Below are positions 3,471 to 11,104 of a stretch of DNA of 11,104 nt, in pieces. Location: assembly GCA_945903615.1 (NCBI GenBank), contig CAMDOL010000044.1, positions 1 to 11,104 on the forward strand, written 5' to 3'. A program made the translations under genes and the position numbers. This DNA is from Rickettsia typhi (lineage in GTDB: Bacteria; Pseudomonadota; Alphaproteobacteria; Rickettsiales; UBA1997). Numbering within the stretch: the first letter of the stretch is position 1; every line of letters begins with the position of its first letter. The notes below the pieces were generated by a model, which had not been told where the DNA came from, did no database searches, and saw only the letters and a list, made by a program, of their open reading frames with translations.

Positions 3471-5822
3471 ATGAAAACTTACTGCCAGCACTGCGGCTTG
3501 ATGAACAAAAATTCTGAAGAAAAATTTTGCTGTAATGGCTGCGAGGTCGCTTATCAAATTATCAATAATTTAGGTTTAGCAAATTATTATCAGACTCGTC
3601 TTTTAAACAATCAAATCAAGGCTCTAAAGCCAGAAGAAAATGGGCAAGTTGATGTTAGTGAATTTGCACACCAAGTTGATAAAAATAGTTTTGCAATTAA
3701 TTTAATGATTGAAGGTTTGCATTGTGCAGCTTGTGTTTGGCTTATTGAAAATGTTTTGAAAAAACAATCGGCAGTAAAAAAAGCGCGAATCAATATGTCG
3801 ACCAAGAGGCTTTATTTAGAATGGTCAGGTCAAGGAAAAGATGCTAAAAATGATGGCAATGATTTGGTTAAATTAATTTTTAATTTGGGCTATCGATTGA
3901 TTCCTTTCGATGCAGAATTTTTAGAAGCTAGTGAAAAAAAATATGATGGCTCAATGCTAAAAGCCCTTGCGGTTTCTGGCTTTGCTTCGGGAAATGTGAT
4001 GCTAATTTCAGTAGCTTTGTGGGCGAATAGCTCTTTGCAAATGGGCGTTGCTACACGCAATTTGCTTTACTGGGTTTCAGCGCTAATTGCTTTGCCGGCT
4101 ATTGTTTATTCTGGTCGTATTTTTGTAGTTTCAGCTTTTAACTCCATTAAACAAAGCCGAACAAATATGGATGTTCCAATTGCGGTGGCAATATTTTTGG
4201 CGAGCATTATCAGCATTTTTGAAGCTATCACTAAAGGCGAACACGCTTATTTTGATTCGGTGATAATGCTAATTTTCTTTTTGTTAATTGGCAGATATTT
4301 AGATTTTTCTGCGCGTCGCAAAGCCTTTTCAATTACGGGTGATTTGATAATGCTCGCAGGAATTTCAGCGACAATAATTTTGGATAACAAACATAAAATT
4401 ATTGCCAGTAAAGATTTGCAAAAAAATATGATTTTGAATGTAGCGATGGGCGAAAGAATTGCTGCGGATGGTTTGATAATTCAAGGCAAATCCGAAATTG
4501 ACACTTCAGTAATTACGGGAGAATCTAATCCAAAAAAATGTCAAGTTGGTGATGAAGTTTTTGCCGGAATGGTCAATTTGGGCAATGCTTTGCAAGTTCG
4601 AATCACTAAAGCGAGAGAAGAAACTTTGCTCGCCAAAATCGTGGTTATGGTTGAACAAATTGAAACTAGCAAAAATTATTATACTAAAATTGCCGATGTA
4701 GTTTCAAAATATTATACGCCAATTGTGCATCTGGTTGCTTTAATTACTTTTATAATTTGGTGCGTCATCGGCATTGGCTGGCATCACTCTTTGCTTAACG
4801 CCGCTGCAGTTCTAATTATTACTTGCCCTTGTGCTTTGGCTCTTGCGGTTCCGGTCGTTCAAATCGTTGCGGCAGGCAGGTTGCTAAAACAGGGAATTTT
4901 GATTAAAAATGGCGAGGCTTTGGAAAGGCTGAATAAAGTTGATACAATTGTTTTTGATAAGACAGGAACTTTGACGGTTGGCAAACCAACATTGGTTAGC
5001 AATTCGTTATTTGTTAGCGAAGAAATTATGAGAATGACAGCTTCTCTGGCAGCAAAAAGCAAACATCCTTTGTCACGAGCTTTGGTAGAAAGTTTTAAAG
5101 GTGAATTGATAGATTTGGAAGTGAAAGAAATTCCGGGAATGGGCTTGGTTGCTAATTATAATGGTGAAGAAATGCGGTTGGGAAATCTTCGTCATTGCCA
5201 AGAGATAAGTAGCGCTGCGATCCAGAATAATGAAGAATTGCCGCAAATATTTTTCAAATATCAAAATCAAATCACAACTTTTATTTTTCAAGACCAATTA
5301 CGCAGCGACGCAAAATCAACCATAAAACAACTTTATAATTATAATTTAATTCTTCTTTCTGGCGACAAAGAATCGGTTGTCAAATCAACCGCAAACCAAC
5401 TGGGTATTGCAAAATATTATTTTGAAAAAACTCCTGATCAAAAATTAGAAATTCTTAAAGCTCTTAAAAACAAAAACAAAAATATTTTAATGGTTGGCGA
5501 TGGCATTAATGACGCACCTTCGCTAATGCTGGCAGATGTTTCAATTTCACCAGCATCAGCAGCTGATATTAGCAAGAATATTGCTGATATAATTTTTCAA
5601 AGCCAGAAGCTGCAACCAATTTTAGAAACCATAAAAACCGCTAAAAAATCTAGCCAAATTATCAAACAAAATTTAGCTTTTGCACTTTTTTATAATTTGG
5701 TCGCAGTGCCTTTTGCAATAATGGGATATGTGGTTCCACTCTTTGCCGCTCTAGCAATGTCCTCTTCTTCGATTGTAGTGGTTTTAAATGCGCTGAGAAT
5801 TAAGAAACCTCTGAACAACTAA
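3471..5822 (+). CDS. ccoI: CcoI/FixI-type copper-translocating P1B-ATPase
   Basis: This inner-membrane heavy-metal ATPase moves Cu(I) outwards. The FixI/CcoI subgroup supplies copper for maturation of cbb3 cytochrome oxidase. It has 783 residues. The N-terminal cysteine-rich segment (CQHC at 5-8, CC at 20-21 and C24) is typical of CcoI-like ATPases and is followed by an HMA domain with GLHCAAC (C85, C88). The actuator TGES is at 349-352, the transmembrane metal site CPC at 452-454, the phosphorylated Asp D496 in DKTGT, the nucleotide-domain HP at 532-533, and GDGIND with D677 and D681 close to the end. About eight membrane spans are present. No ccoNOPQ, ccoG, ccoH or ccoS is in the window, so the gene is isolated here. 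The final residues after NALRIK and the TAA itself lie in the left arm of the palindromic element, so the native C-terminus has been slightly changed. Confidence 0.93.
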   Translation: MKTYCQHCGLMNKNSEEKFCCNGCEVAYQIINNLGLANYYQTRLLNNQIKALKPEENGQVDVSEFAHQVDKNSFAINLMIEGLHCAACVWLIENVLKKQSAVKKARINMSTKRLYLEWSGQGKDAKNDGNDLVKLIFNLGYRLIPFDAEFLEASEKKYDGSMLKALAVSGFASGNVMLISVALWANSSLQMGVATRNLLYWVSALIALPAIVYSGRIFVVSAFNSIKQSRTNMDVPIAVAIFLASIISIFEAITKGEHAYFDSVIMLIFFLLIGRYLDFSARRKAFSITGDLIMLAGISATIILDNKHKIIASKDLQKNMILNVAMGERIAADGLIIQGKSEIDTSVITGESNPKKCQVGDEVFAGMVNLGNALQVRITKAREETLLAKIVVMVEQIETSKNYYTKIADVVSKYYTPIVHLVALITFIIWCVIGIGWHHSLLNAAAVLIITCPCALALAVPVVQIVAAGRLLKQGILIKNGEALERLNKVDTIVFDKTGTLTVGKPTLVSNSLFVSEEIMRMTASLAAKSKHPLSRALVESFKGELIDLEVKEIPGMGLVANYNGEEMRLGNLRHCQEISSAAIQNNEELPQIFFKYQNQITTFIFQDQLRSDAKSTIKQLYNYNLILLSGDKESVVKSTANQLGIAKYYFEKTPDQKLEILKALKNKNKNILMVGDGINDAPSLMLADVSISPASAADISKNIADIIFQSQKLQPILETIKTAKKSSQIIKQNLAFALFYNLVAVPFAIMGYVVPLFAALAMSSSSIVVVLNALRIKKPLNN

Positions 5823-5977
5823 AACAATGTTTTAGAAAAATTGATCTTTCTGGTCTTTTTTGGCATAAATTCCATTATTTTTGGTGAAATATGGAAATAT
5901 TCCACCAAAAAGTAATAAAATTTCTACTCAAAAAATCCTCAGAAATATCAATTTTTAGCTGTTCAGAGGTTCCTTAA
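5800..5977. mobile_element. MITE-like palindromic element with TTAA flanks
   Basis: The ends are inverted repeats: 5800-5824 matches the reverse complement of 5953-5977 at 23 of 25 bases (core RAACCTCTGAACARCTAAAA). Similarity continues inwards along both arms to a perfect hairpin core, apart from one mismatch, at 5878-5911, so nearly the whole element folds on itself. The left arm carries an extra 15 bases at 5825-5839, which create the small palindrome CTAAAACAATGTTTTAG. TTAA stands at both outer edges (5800-5803, 5974-5977), consistent with a target duplication around a 170-bp element. There is no transposase frame, so it is non-autonomous. The ends loosely recall IS5-family termini, but that is not established here. 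It supplies the end and stop codon of ccoI. Confidence 0.75.
5878..5911. repeat. Central hairpin of the palindromic element
   Basis: 15-base arms at 5878-5892 and 5897-5911 pair with one mismatch around a GGAA loop (core TTTTTGGTG / CACCAAAAA... read across the arms). It is the only strong hairpin downstream of ccoI and could attenuate or end transcription or protect the ccoI mRNA 3' end. It lacks a downstream T-run, so it is not a classical intrinsic terminator. Confidence 0.55.
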
Positions 5978-6112
5978 AAACAGCAAATTATATCGAAAAA
6001 ATTTCTGATACCTGTTGAACCATTTGTTGATAATGGTTTTAAGAGTTTTAGTGTTTGGCTAAGCGGACAGAAGTTGATTAAGCTCTACTATAAACATATT
6101 AAAATTACATAA
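5978..6112 (+). pseudogene. Headless 3' remnant of an unidentified gene
   Basis: An open frame of 44 codons starts directly at the right edge of the palindromic element; the TAA that closes it upstream is part of the element's flanking TTAA. It has no start codon at its head. It reads KQQIISKKFL, then IPVEPFVDNGFKSFSVWLSG, then a basic tail ending KHIKIT. Its stop overlaps the start of the next gene as TAATG, the arrangement expected of translationally coupled operon genes. This supports its being the true C-terminus of a gene that once preceded the GT2 gene. The family is not recognised. It could instead be a chance open frame, since 44 codons is short. Confidence 0.4.
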
Positions 6113-6972: not shown

Positions 6973-7263
6973 ATGAGATTATCAGTTCAAGATATAAAAG
7001 TTATTAAAAAAGCCACTAAAGAAATTTATGGAAATTCTCCAATTTGGCTTTTTGGCAGTAGGGTTGATGATAATAAAAAAGGTGGGGATATCGATTTATT
7101 TATTGAAACTAAACAAAAAAGTTCAATAGATGATAAAATAAAATTTCTAAGAATATTAGAAAATAATGGAATTGAAAGAAAGGTTGATTTGATTGTTAAA
7201 TCTTCAGATTCAAATCATCGTTCAATATTTGATACAGCAAAACAAACTGGAATTTTATTATGA
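6973..7263 (+). CDS. mntA: MntA-like minimal nucleotidyltransferase antitoxin
   Basis: A 96-residue member of the DNA polymerase beta-like minimal nucleotidyltransferase (MNT) family. GS at 28-29 followed by D39-I-D41 gives the GSx9DxD catalytic signature, and D72 (RKVDLIV) is the third metal-binding Asp. In characterised MntA-HepT systems this protein modifies a Tyr of the HEPN toxin with AMP from ATP and so silences it. All three acidic residues are intact, so it should be active. Its TGA overlaps the hepT ATG as ATGA, giving the standard antitoxin-first, coupled arrangement. It sits inside a polysaccharide operon, 15 bases after the GT2 gene, and is probably co-transcribed with it. No Shine-Dalgarno site is evident. 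Confidence 0.9.
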   Translation: MRLSVQDIKVIKKATKEIYGNSPIWLFGSRVDDNKKGGDIDLFIETKQKSSIDDKIKFLRILENNGIERKVDLIVKSSDSNHRSIFDTAKQTGILL

Positions 7264-7718
7264 AGAATAAATCACTACTAAATGAGTCTTTAGAAACCTC
7301 AAAACTTCATCTAAAAAGAGCGAAATTTGGTTATGAGCGGATGCAGAAAATAATTCTTGATTCAGAATTATTTAATGACGAATCAAAAATAGAAACTGTA
7401 GATGCTTTTATTTTTAGATTTATAAAGTTACAAGATTTTATGGGTGAAAAACTATTCAAACATCTATTAACTAGGGTTGGAGTGTATAAAGATAGTATGT
7501 CTTTGCTCGATGTATTGGATAAATTAGAAAAAATGGAGTTGGTGCCAAGCAGTGATAGGTGGAAAGATTATAGAGAGGTTAGAAATCAATTAACCCATGA
7601 ATATCCTGAAAATAAAGAAGATGTGGTTAATGGTATTAAAAAAGCTATGGAATATTTTCCTGAGATTGAGAATATTGTTGTCAAAATGGAGAATTATATC
7701 AAAACTTTAGAGCGTTAG
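7260..7718 (+). CDS. hepT: HepT-like HEPN-domain toxin
   Basis: A 152-residue, mostly helical HEPN-domain protein. R108-N-Q-L-T-H113-E-Y115 is a full Rx4HxY motif: R and H form the predicted RNase site, and the Tyr is the residue that the partner MntA modifies in studied systems. As a toxin it would cleave RNA and arrest growth when the labile or inactive antitoxin no longer modifies it. It is slightly longer than compact HepT proteins of about 130-140 residues but is otherwise complete. It overlaps mntA by four bases and ends one base before the ATG of the rhamnan-synthesis-like gene, so loss of the pair without harming the operon would be difficult. The family is secure; activity in this host is inferred. 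Confidence 0.9.
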   Translation: MKNKSLLNESLETSKLHLKRAKFGYERMQKIILDSELFNDESKIETVDAFIFRFIKLQDFMGEKLFKHLLTRVGVYKDSMSLLDVLDKLEKMELVPSSDRWKDYREVRNQLTHEYPENKEDVVNGIKKAMEYFPEIENIVVKMENYIKTLER

Positions 7719-7719
7719 A

Positions 7720-8649
7720 ATGTCAAAATCACACCAAAAAACTAATAATATCGCCATCTTCGCCCACTACGACAAACACAACATTGTTGATGATTATGTG
7801 CTGATCTATTTGCAAAATCTAAAAAAATTCTGCGACCAAATAATTTTTGTTTCTGATGGCGATTTATCAGCCCAGGAGCGACAAAAAATTTCTTCAATGG
7901 TTAGTGATATTATCGCCACCAGACATCAAGAATATGATTTTGGCAGTTGGAAAAGAGGCTTTAATCTTTTAAAAGAAAAATATCCGCAAGATTTTTTGAT
8001 TACAAATAAATTAATTTTTGCCAACGATTCTTGTTATTGCTTGGGTGAGTTTGATGGTATATTTGATCAGATTAAATCTATGCCAAATGTTGATTGCTTT
8101 GGCATTACCGACAATGAAGAATGTTCTTATCATCTCCAAAGTTATTTTTTAGTTTTTAATCAAACTGTTTTTCAGCAAGATTTTTTTGATATTTTTTTAC
8201 AAAATGTTGGGCAAAAAAAATATAAATACGATATCATCAAAGAATACGAAGTTGGTCTATCAGAGCTTTTGATCCGCAATAACAAAAAAATATATGCAAT
8301 TTTTGGCAGAGATTTGGTTCAAGATTATTCCAATCAAAACAAACCATTAATCAGAAAAAAAATCTTAAGAATCATTGGCTTATATCAAATTTTATTTGGC
8401 GTTAAAAGAATTTTTACCACCCTATTTCAAATCTCTGATTGCTATTCTTATCATAATGCCTTCTATCTATTGATATTAAAGGGTTGTCCGCTATTAAAAC
8501 GCTCAATTGTTCTTAAAGATTTTTTGCCAAAAAAATCTCTCAACTCTTCATCATTGTGTTATTTTTGGAAAAAAATTTTAGATAAGGAAACCATTTTTGA
8601 TGGCCAAATCATCTCCAATCACGCCACTAGAATTTCGCAAGCAAAATGA
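7720..8649 (+). CDS. Rhamnan synthesis protein F-like (RgpF family) glycan-assembly protein
   Basis: A 309-residue protein resembling the rhamnan synthesis F (RgpF) family, whose members are putative glycosyltransferases in rhamnose-rich polysaccharide synthesis. Visible family hallmarks are the N-terminal IAIFAHYDKH, EYDFGSWKRG at 71-80, IFANDSCY at 99-106, GITDN at 128-132 and HLQSYFLVF at 138-146. A C-terminal part with HNAF and GCPLLKRSIV resembles the usual end of the family. There are no clear membrane spans. The start follows the hepT stop by one base, and the end overlaps rfbD as ATGA, so the three genes are almost certainly one transcript. Standing next to dTDP-rhamnose reductase, it probably handles rhamnose transfer; the exact linkage is unknown. 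Confidence 0.85.
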   Translation: MSKSHQKTNNIAIFAHYDKHNIVDDYVLIYLQNLKKFCDQIIFVSDGDLSAQERQKISSMVSDIIATRHQEYDFGSWKRGFNLLKEKYPQDFLITNKLIFANDSCYCLGEFDGIFDQIKSMPNVDCFGITDNEECSYHLQSYFLVFNQTVFQQDFFDIFLQNVGQKKYKYDIIKEYEVGLSELLIRNNKKIYAIFGRDLVQDYSNQNKPLIRKKILRIIGLYQILFGVKRIFTTLFQISDCYSYHNAFYLLILKGCPLLKRSIVLKDFLPKKSLNSSSLCYFWKKILDKETIFDGQIISNHATRISQAK

Positions 8650-9509
8650 ACAACATTCTAATCTTTGGCAAAAATGGACAAGTTGCATCTAATTTGATTC
8701 GGCTTTTTGCTGAAGAAAATACCAGAGGTGATAACAAGGAAAATAATTTTAATGTTCATTCATATTCAAGCTCTGAGGTTGATTTTGCTGATCTATCAGC
8801 ATTGAAAAATTTTTTAAATAATTTATCAACAAAGCCAAATTTTATCATCAACGCCGCCGCTTATACCAATGTTGATAAAGCTGAAGATGAAAAAGCCAAA
8901 GGGGAAAATGATTTAGCCGATTTAATCAATCACCAAGCGGTGGCAGTTATCGCCAGATATTGCGCTCAAAACCAAATAAAACTAATTCACTATTCCACCG
9001 ATTATGTTTTTGACGGGTCAGGCACTGAGCCTTTCGCGGAAGATAACACCGCAAATCTTCACCCTCTTAATCATTATGGAGCAACTAAATTGCTTGGCGA
9101 AAAGGCAATTACAAATTCTAACTGCCAGCATATAATTTTTAGAATTTCTTGGGTTTATGATGCCAATCCAAACAGCAAAAATTTTCTCAACACCATCACC
9201 AGACTTGCCAAAGAGAAAGAAGTGTTAAATATTATCGATGATCAAATCGGCAGCCCAACATCAGCCAGTTTCGTTGCGACAAACACCATAAGAACCATAA
9301 AAAAATTTTCCAATTCCACAGAAAAATTCCCTAGCGGAATTTATCATTTAAATAATGGAAAATACATTTCTTGGTATGATTTTGCGTTGCAAATTGTGGA
9401 GGATTTAAAAATGAAAAATGTTGAGTTAAAGGTAAAAGAAATCTTGCCGATTAAAACTTCTGAATATAAAACTAAAGCGACAAGACCTTTAAATTCAAGG
9501 CTATTATAG
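8646..9509 (+). CDS. rfbD: dTDP-4-dehydrorhamnose reductase, C-terminally truncated
   Basis: RfbD (RmlD) carries out the last step of dTDP-L-rhamnose synthesis: NAD(P)H-dependent reduction of dTDP-4-dehydro-L-rhamnose. It has 287 residues. The Rossmann nucleotide loop GKNGQV is at 8-13, AAAYTNVDKAE at 70-80, STDYVFDG at 117-124, the catalytic Y144xxxK148 follows, then RISWVYD at 167-172 and IGSPTSA at 201-207. The protein ends ATRPLNSRLL, whereas the family normally continues past RPxNSxLD for roughly 20-30 more residues. The TAG at 9507-9509 is made by the first bases of a mobile element, so the final helix is missing. The catalytic core is intact and the enzyme may still work. rfbA, rfbB and rfbC are not in the window. 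Confidence 0.88.
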   Translation: MNNILIFGKNGQVASNLIRLFAEENTRGDNKENNFNVHSYSSSEVDFADLSALKNFLNNLSTKPNFIINAAAYTNVDKAEDEKAKGENDLADLINHQAVAVIARYCAQNQIKLIHYSTDYVFDGSGTEPFAEDNTANLHPLNHYGATKLLGEKAITNSNCQHIIFRISWVYDANPNSKNFLNTITRLAKEKEVLNIIDDQIGSPTSASFVATNTIRTIKKFSNSTEKFPSGIYHLNNGKYISWYDFALQIVEDLKMKNVELKVKEILPIKTSEYKTKATRPLNSRLL

Positions 9510-9746
9510 TGAACCCCAATTTTCAGATCACTCACTTTCATTTTTAGCAAGACTTTTTTACCCAGAAATATTATTGATTTTCTATCAACAAATAATGAGG
9601 TAAAAAATGTCATCAGCGAATAAACATTTAAAACAAGGATTGCGTGTTGTTGTTTTAAGAGGTGACAAGAGGTATTTTCAGAGATTTTCTGGGTCAAAAA
9701 GTCCGATGATTTTTGAAGGGAGATGGTCTTGACAATGTGGTTCACT
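9508..9746. mobile_element. Second MITE-like element with long terminal inverted repeats
   Basis: The tips AGTGAACC (9508-9515) and GGTTCACT (9739-9746) are perfect inverted repeats, extendable outwards to 12 of 13 bases. A second pair, 9551-9565 against 9689-9703, matches 14 of 15 and lies exactly 43 bases inside each tip. So the arms are collinear over about 58 bases (about 37 matches in an ungapped hand count). The inside has no transposase frame, only a 41-codon open frame (9607-9732). A short TTA stands close to both tips, but no convincing target duplication is seen. This fits an element caught between two different genes, truncated rfbD and headless pyrD. It shows no clear similarity to the first element. 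Confidence 0.7.
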
Positions 9747-10093
9747 TTAATATTATTGGTAGCACAACAATTTTTCGCCCACAAAATTTACGCAGTGAAT
9801 ATAAAACCCAAAGCGGTGGCCTAAGCGGTAAGCCTTTATTCTCAATACCTAACGAGGTTCTAAAAAATATTTATAGCCTCACCAAAGGCAAAATTTCAAT
9901 CACAGCCGCGGGCGCAATTTCTTCAGCCCAAGAGACGTCTTCATAAAATTGAACTGGGTCTCTCTGTGCACATTTACCCCACCTTAATCTATCAGGGGTG
10001 GCAAAAATTAAAAAAGAGCTGGATGAATGCTTAAAAAAAGACAGATTAAAAAACATTGAACAGCTAGTTGGGACAATTAATAAGGACCGCTAA
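9747..10093 (+). pseudogene. pyrD: Degraded 3' fragment of dihydroorotate dehydrogenase (class 2)
   Basis: PyrD oxidises dihydroorotate to orotate in pyrimidine synthesis. Only the last third is here. After the element edge comes NIIGSTTIFRPQNL, the family's ...SNTTISRPQNL region; then QSGGLSGKPLF (FMN-binding loop); then KISITAAGAISSAQ, where the family has I-I-GVGGISSAQ, so the phosphate-binding VGG is lost. The frame breaks near 9937-9944; the next segment, HKIELGLSVHIYPTLIYQG, is in the following frame. Near 9994 it returns to the first frame for AKIKKELDECLKKDRLKNIE and ...LVGTINKDR, ending in TAA at 10091-10093. Two frameshifts and a missing N-terminus make it non-functional as a dehydrogenase. 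A working pyrD would be expected elsewhere in the genome. Confidence 0.82.
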
Positions 10094-10141
10094 AAGATCG
10101 CCAAAAGCTTTTCTGTAAGAAATCAAAATTGAAAATAAAAT

Positions 10142-11104
10142 ATGCTAAACCGCCTAAAAAAAACCAAACTGCTTTTTGATATGACCCAGTTCCAGCATTT
10201 TGGAACTGATGGAGAAACTGGCATTTATAGAGCCGCTAATGAGATCTTCAAAAGACTAGTAGAAAGAGAGGATATAGACCTATATTGCTTTATTGATAGA
10301 AAAAAAATCTACAATAATGTTATTAAATATATCAAAAAAACCAGCCCAGAGCACCTAAATAAGATAATCTATTTAAAATATTTACAAAAAATTGCTCGAG
10401 ATAAAAATTTTATTTTTAGAGCTAAATCTTGCATTTATAAGGCTTTATATCTCCAAAAATATTGCAATATAATCAAAAATTTTGATTGGTATTTTTCTCC
10501 TTTTGACAACATTTCCAATTTAGTTTATCAAAATACCAAAACATCAATTTTAATCCACGATCTAATTCCAATAATGCAGCCCGAGTTTGTGGATAAAGAT
10601 TTTATCAAGTATTTTACTAAAATGATTGATAATCTAAAGGCAGATTTTGTTTTTTTCAATTCCAACTATAGCCGCCAAGATTTTCTAAATTATCGCAAAG
10701 ATTTTGATCCCAATAAAACTGCAATCACTTATTTAGCAGCTAGTGAAAAATTCAAACCAAGCGGCGATAAAAATTTGATCAGCCAAATTAAACAAAAATA
10801 TAACATTAAAACAGAGAAATATTTTCTTTCTGTTTCTAACTCCAATCCAAGAAAAAATCTTTTATTTGTAATCAAAAACTTTTTTGCATTCATAAAAATT
10901 AATAACATCAAAAACCTATCCCTTGTTCTCTCTGGCCCTAAAAGCGACCAATTTTATCAAAATTTGGCAATAAATTTTCCCGAATACCAAGATCTGTGTG
11001 AAAAAATAATCGTCACAGGTTTTGTGGAGGATGCAGATTTGCCAGCCCTATATAGTGGCTCACTAGCTTTTGTTTATATGTCGTTATATGAAGGTTTTGG
11101 CCTG
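10142..11104 (+). CDS. Family 4 glycosyltransferase (group 1), 3'-partial
   Basis: The frame is open from ATG 10142 to the window end, giving 321 residues with the C-terminus missing. It is a GT-B fold retaining glycosyltransferase like those of O-antigen and capsule clusters. The N-terminal domain begins LLFDMTQFQHFG with a TGIYRA motif. HDLIP at 139-143 is typical of this branch. The linker reads YLAASEKFKPS; the C-terminal domain opens with FLSVSNSNPRKNL (P236-R237-K238), then LVLSGPK, VTGFVEDADLPALY and the start of the donor-sugar motif SLYEGFGL (E317), where the window stops. It follows the pyrD remnant by 48 bases and has no visible Shine-Dalgarno site. It is probably part of the same polysaccharide locus as the GT2, RgpF-like and rfbD genes; its donor sugar is unknown. 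Confidence 0.88.
   Translation, partial: MLNRLKKTKLLFDMTQFQHFGTDGETGIYRAANEIFKRLVEREDIDLYCFIDRKKIYNNVIKYIKKTSPEHLNKIIYLKYLQKIARDKNFIFRAKSCIYKALYLQKYCNIIKNFDWYFSPFDNISNLVYQNTKTSILIHDLIPIMQPEFVDKDFIKYFTKMIDNLKADFVFFNSNYSRQDFLNYRKDFDPNKTAITYLAASEKFKPSGDKNLISQIKQKYNIKTEKYFLSVSNSNPRKNLLFVIKNFFAFIKINNIKNLSLVLSGPKSDQFYQNLAINFPEYQDLCEKIIVTGFVEDADLPALYSGSLAFVYMSLYEGFGL

Follow-up and report, generated by a model that had tools for sequence, protein, structure and literature searches.

Between rfbD and a remnant of pyrD, the stretch of DNA analysed here (11,104 nucleotides; the window) carries a 245-bp, internally deleted element of the IS3 family, and the evidence supports, although it does not prove, the view that this element sits at a chromosome breakpoint. 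With moderate confidence, we attribute the junction to recombination between two IS3 copies, one at the 3' end of rfbD and the other in pyrD. The features that bear on this reading are the following.

8646..9509, + strand: rfbD/rmlD (dTDP-4-dehydrorhamnose reductase), 287 aa (Pfam RmlD, 274 bits; TIGR01214, 265 bits)
9505..9749, + strand: non-autonomous, internally deleted IS3-family element (MITE-like), from matches of its left and right halves to IS3 ends
9505..9530, + strand: left terminal inverted repeat, its tip TATAGT being the predicted -10 of a circle-junction promoter (repeat scan, IS3 tip comparison)
9551..9568, + strand: inner inverted repeat, left copy; its ACTTTTT core is also found in the left ends of L104, L238, L239, L246 and L247
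9597..9609, + strand: start region of the orfA remnant, with predicted ribosome-binding site and ATG (GAGGTAAAAAATG), as judged by alignment with where orfA begins in L104 and L238
9607..9732, + strand: 41-codon ORF, about ten orfA codons (MSSANKHLKQ) continuing into orfB-end sequence (N-terminus comparison)
9686..9703, + strand: inner inverted repeat, right copy, with the AAAAAGTC core of the IS right end
9724..9749, - strand: right terminal inverted repeat (repeat scan, tip comparison, orfB-end alignment)
9729..9734, + strand: outward -35 hexamer TTGACA, 15 nt before the right tip
9750..10093, + strand: pyrD pseudogene, reduced to its C-terminal part, roughly residue 240 onwards out of about 355 (Pfam DHO_dh, NCBIfam pyrD)
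9751..9756, + strand: TATTAT in the flanking pyrD DNA, separated by 16 nt from the -35 hexamer, with which it may form a hybrid outward promoter (11 of 12 consensus matches)
10142..11104, + strand: glycosyltransferase group 1 gene (Pfam), downstream of the junction and running off the window

Homology of both halves shows the element to be an IS3-family copy that has lost its interior and kept its two ends. The left half corresponds to the left end of the IS, the leader, the ribosome-binding site and about ten codons of orfA, and the right half to the end of orfB followed by the right repeat. The left half aligns with the IS3 left end of genome G184 (locus L104; 75% over 99 bp, E = 1.6e-10), with two loci of G274 (L238 and L239; z = 15.4 and 13.2, respectively, against letter shuffles), and with L246 of G191 and L247 of G266 (scores of 70 and 66, respectively). 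The right half matches the orfB end and right repeat of L238, near 3690-3775, with a score of 52 (z = 8.6; 0 of 300 shuffles as good), and also L249 of G269 (z = 5.0); against L247, which is the nearest of the full-length copies seen, it aligns weakly (z = 3.2, with 4 of 300 shuffles scoring as well). None of 1038 control stretches, drawn from both strands of seven loci and partly overlapping, reached 52 for the right half (maximum 35) or 66 for the left half (maximum 52), the controls being 175 nt long and the left-half targets in L246 and L247 310 nt. The ORFs of L104 belong to the IS3 family (NF033516 at E = 1.4e-70 for orfB; rve and HTH_Tnp_1 domains), and both have matches in L247 and in L249. 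The IS3 copies of G274, G266, G191 and G184, all of the same GTDB family, have in common with the element the inner repeat core (ACTTTTT / AAAAAGTC), the leader, the ribosome-binding site, the orfA start and the orfB end. The 1492-bp copy of G266 and the copy of G184 carry both orfA and orfB, whereas the window copy has 245 bp and no transposase, about 1.0-1.2 kb less than copies of 1260-1492 bp; the match in the G191 copy is confined to orfA residues 2-47, and one of the G274 copies runs to the end of the contig.

The N-terminus encoded by the 41-codon ORF was compared with the orfA N-termini of L239 (MSSTSKHFKKYSSDF), L246 and L247 (MSTSKHFKKYSSDF) and L238 (MSNLSKHIKKYSSDF); from about 9667 onwards the sequence resembles the orfB end, and these short similarities suggest that the ORF is an in-frame fusion of the orfA start with the orfB end. 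The element encodes no orfA/orfB transposase with HTH and rve domains, and the best Pfam match of the 41-aa product has E = 0.093. Given that there is no intact transposase, the element is best described as a derivative rather than an autonomous IS3 element: its terminal inverted repeats are like those of related IS3 copies and, as a short (245 bp), non-autonomous and IS-derived sequence with terminal repeats, it has the properties of a MITE. Shrinkage of IS3 has happened elsewhere in this family, as indicated by a 426-bp derivative in G274 (contig C14, L238:325-750) in which most of orfA is followed by the last 43 nt of the right end. An identical 43 nt of right end is found 2.6 kb downstream on the same contig, in a 5'-truncated IS3 that consists of orfB residues 120-247 and the right end (L238:3324-3775); a gene that looks by eye like an acyltransferase lies between the two pieces.

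The original prediction was a 239-bp inverted-repeat element, at 9508-9746, with inner repeats at equal 43-base offsets. The repeats proved real, and the extent had to be revised. A scan of the window finds tip arms at 9502-9530/9724-9752 (29 nt, 76% complementary) and inner arms at 9551-9568/9686-9703 (18 nt, 94% complementary) that begin 43 bases inside 9508 and 9746, tip and inner arms being in one register. When paired in register, 9508-9746 has 40 of 61 outer pairs complementary, the top score of all placements in the window (about 2.7 million, from every start at lengths of 150-400), and, folded as single-stranded DNA, it has z = -3.2. Going by the majority of IS3 copies from related genomes, an element that spans 9505-9749 (245 bp) fits better; this version has 39 of 61 pairs, a value reached by 0 of 5000 dinucleotide shuffles of the element (maximum 30). 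Its left end reads TATAGTGAACCCC and the reverse complement of its right end reads TAAAGTGAACC, resembling the tips of other Rickettsiales IS3 copies, for which 12 pairs of copies, each pair from one Rickettsiales genome, served as the reference. Several groups (G228, G197, G124, G054 and G032) have the left tips TATAATGG or TATAATGC, with deviating ones in G161 (AGAAGTGC), G179 (TTACGTAATG) and G155 (TATAAGAG); the copies of G274, G266 and G191 share the left tip TATAGTG, after which several C (CCCC) come in a row. The right tip of the G266 copy is TATAATGAACCCC, and the G184 copy, the first relative found, differs in its outer tips. Ends at 9510/9744 (TG..CA) with a TA duplication at 9504/9750 were also considered and dropped after comparison with the ends of the reference IS3 copies.

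The tip pattern of the element occurs only once in the window. A separate inverted-repeat element at 5800-5977 (36 of 61 outer pairs in register) also lies at a gene end, directly after the stop codon of a P-type ATPase gene, and has different tips (AAACCTCTGAACAACTAAAA / GGAACCTCTGAACAGCTAAAA). A second copy of this very element was not found in 262 Rickettsiales genomes or 61 family-level genomes (the two sets overlap), with two candidates scored per genome for the genomes listed in the former and at most 12 per genome in the latter; the G274 copies were missed by the family-level search and found only by the tip pattern, so that divergent copies could be missed. At E <= 1e-4, the element DNA matches two of the 262 genomes, namely G184, with its IS3 copy, and G104, whose match, 36 AT-rich bases, was set aside. 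In blastn comparisons with plasmids (3 records) and phages (44 records, 20 of them listed), the matches listed span 25-35 bases with E of 0.02 or worse. A 21-base tip pattern with up to 3 mismatches is found in the 262 genomes at 6 places in 5 genomes, all inside longer ORFs, and tblastn detected no IS3 transposase within reach of these places. In viral contigs, an 18-base tip pattern had 0 matches and a 15-base one had 58, none with an IS3 transposase in the surrounding stretch; the 41-aa ORF, used as a protein query, returned no candidate. Among 30 IS orfB loci from 18 genomes, the left end of the element reached z >= 3 upstream of orfB in 4 and the right end did so downstream in 2, indicating that, apart from the tip, there is little in common with most distant IS3 copies.

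The two ends also have the layout of an IS3 circle-junction promoter, as predicted from TTGACA near the right tip and TATAGT at the left tip. Such a promoter is described as demonstrated for IS911 and IS2 in the portions of PMC9330008 and PMC3219604 available to us, with the outward -35 in the right repeat and the -10 in the left; the element has the same predicted arrangement, with 15 nt plus the spacer. A -35-like hexamer (at least 4 of 6 matches) lies 15 nt from the right tip in 6 of the 10 reference groups (G228, G197, G124, G054, G032 and G274) and is absent from this position in G161, G269 (L249), G184 (L104) and G266 (L247), the last being the nearest full-length copy. Exact TTGACA occurs at 8 of the 22,198 window positions on both strands. 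In its present place, the hexamer forms together with TATTAT a predicted promoter-like site directed towards 10142; within 9300-10200, 2 promoter-like sites were observed against 2.6 expected. The ends of the element thus appear to be still of the kind used by IS3 transposases, and a partner transposase could have moved the element in trans. A bolder, and in our estimate very unlikely, proposal is that the gutted copy is still a working mobile module, circularised in trans, that provides a hybrid promoter for the polysaccharide gene at 10142 and an orfA-orfB micro-peptide modulating the transposase; if this were true, such modules would be chromosome breakage sites and new promoters in this lineage.

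The homology boundaries proposed for the junction, that of rfbD at the left tip and that of pyrD at the right tip, agree with the alignments. The last native codon of rfbD is CTA at 9501-9503 (L286), and its stop codon, TAG at 9507-9509, lies inside the element tip. In an alignment with 14 relatives, the protein is nearly invariant to L286, beyond which there are weakly conserved tails of 7-26 residues, with one isoleucine column reaching a majority and a loose K-I-x-N-L in several tails. A 98% identical rfbD product (P0001) has 8 residues after L286, and the window has one, then the stop. Judging from this alignment, rfbD seems trimmed rather than clearly broken, short of 8 residues of weakly conserved tail, and probably still functional; a shortfall of about 27 residues, estimated from the profile end, was dropped, given that the alignment with relatives shows 8. 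The rfbD genes of two bins titled Rickettsia typhi, titles that may be wrong, are 63% (L002) and 49% (L004) identical to that of the window.

On the right side, the first aligned codon of pyrD is at 9752. The remnant is split in three: 9752-9931, a second piece starting at 9945 in a different frame, and a third starting at 10004, where the first frame resumes; the frames are 2, 0 and 2, with two frame changes. Its best genome match is the intact pyrD of G001 (68% identical); the first piece is up to 74% identical among the 120 proteins listed, and the third up to 83% (P0126, intact). The neighbouring genes are open, which suggests that pyrD is a pseudogene rather than poor sequence. Only pyrD, then, is clearly dead, and, with rfbD merely trimmed, the initial description of two broken genes was overstated. 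The glycosyltransferase gene downstream has no match at E <= 1e-8 in the related loci examined. Elsewhere in the window, within the polysaccharide gene cluster, 6973-7718 encodes a pair of nucleotidyltransferase and substrate-binding-like genes (a Polbeta match, with NTase_sub_bind just below the cut-off); toxin-antitoxin modules are known to include such pairs.

A rearrangement at the element, as originally suggested, is supported by the presence of a mobile-element derivative exactly at the junction, by the separation of the two genes in relatives and by the lack of an in-register 3-bp duplication. At E <= 1e-60, rfbD is found in 19 of the 262 Rickettsiales genomes, 17 of which also have a pyrD match at E <= 1e-4; the two genes share a contig in 0 of these 17, a count weakened by the many drafts with short contigs. 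In G001, they are on different contigs, at least about 62.5 kb apart. The same gene order with an intact pyrD, which would speak against a rearrangement, was not encountered in the genomes searched. For the second-best rfbD match (P0002, 79% identical) and for an intact pyrD (P0132), the longest contig given has the same size, 140,599 bases, and the two genes may be linked in that relative; each comes from a bin titled 'Pseudomonadota bacterium', and this contig would be the best outgroup for the junction. The 3-mers flanking the element differ (TAT and ATA), leaving it without an in-register target duplication; this is weak evidence for rearrangement because 5 of the 8 reference IS3 copies with both ends and flanks defined (two each from G228, G197, G124 and G054) also have none, and the other 3 have matched 3-bp duplications (CTC and CGG in G197, GTG in G054). 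This count leaves out G179 (ends not parsed), G161 (ends uncertain), G032 (no left flank) and the copy pairs with an unresolved right end; no matched 3-bp duplication is seen in L247 or the L238 derivative either.

The element is an IS3-family copy that lost about 1.0-1.2 kb of transposase sequence by internal deletion. Under the explanation that we prefer, recombination between two copies, one would have lain at the 3' end of rfbD and the other within pyrD. The exchange would have connected the sequence to the left of one copy with that to the right of the other via a single element; pyrD would thereby have been destroyed, gathering frameshifts later, and rfbD would have kept its conserved sequence and taken its stop codon from the element tip. 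The reciprocal junction of the proposed recombination was not seen. A rather unlikely course of events is that a single element was inserted at the end of rfbD and that the DNA beyond its right tip was then deleted as far as the interior of pyrD. An adjacent deletion of this kind needs no second copy and would yield one crisp tip on each side, and P0002 and P0132, through their shared contig size, allow that the two genes lie on one stretch of DNA in that relative; a deletion is opposed by the distance between the genes in G001, given that so large a loss from a small genome would probably remove needed genes.

That the junction is an assembly artefact, with rfbD-element and element-pyrD reads of two copies wrongly joined, appears doubtful. 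The element is repetitive in type and exceeds the length of a short read, and P0001, nearly identical to the window rfbD, has the longer tail, all of which would fit a misassembly; nevertheless, the frame changes within pyrD make it dead whatever the join, and the nine other named genes of the window are open. A plain insertion into an older rfbD-pyrD junction would find a slipped target duplication in the TAT at 9502-9504 and 9751-9753, but these two TAT are shifted by one base relative to the tips that related copies define, and an exact hit on an older junction is improbable, which makes this account highly improbable as a whole. That the element is a Rickettsia palindromic element (RPE) or a regulatory hairpin instead of a transposon derivative is scarcely credible: it is short and palindromic, and the nearest rfbD relative among the genome contigs searched is titled Rickettsiaceae, but both halves match IS3 ends, no terminator-like site was detected in 9300-10200, and Rfam at E <= 1 gave no match there, the two weak microRNA-family matches being at the other inverted repeat (5799-5978).

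A rearrangement at the element would make the junction an ordinary kind of genome decay with an unusually clear anatomy: in an uncultured Rickettsiaceae-like lineage, an IS that shrank to its ends now appears to lie at a breakpoint. That breakpoint would have removed a pyrimidine-synthesis gene, a loss of the kind that accompanies host dependence. The element ends, the inner repeats and the promoter geometry can be used for finding further copies in metagenomes.

Several known systems resemble parts of this picture. In the text of PMC10969869 available to us, RPEs are described as elements of about 150 bp that carry ORFs and that in many cases are inserted in frame into genes. The element is similar to RPEs of Rickettsiaceae in its short palindromic form and its ORF; its ends, however, are by homology those of IS3, and rather than extending the host protein by an in-frame insertion, its tip gives rfbD a TAG stop. 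MITEs that are deletion derivatives of ISs are well known according to PMC3189936 and PMC3852290; the excerpts of the former describe the IS5-like MITEPsy1 (100 bp), which was seen to move, and MITEPsy2 (228 bp), with Tn3-family-like ends. Like the window element, whose ends are IS3-like, both are below 300 bp, have IS-like or transposon-like ends and contain no transposase. No IS3-type miniature inverted-repeat transposable element of Rickettsiales was found in the open-licence literature, which does not show that none is in print. Shuffling driven by ISs has already been described in Rickettsia: as far as the available part of PMC2791219 goes, a copy of ISRpe1 lies at 31 of 37 synteny breaks of Rickettsia peacockii, whose chromosome holds 42 copies, of which 31 have the coding sequence of the transposase and 11 are interrupted by frameshifts or stops. 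The association of an IS with synteny breakpoints and with the loss of neighbouring genes is thus common to ISRpe1 and the junction described here, where a single gutted copy is found at a single junction.
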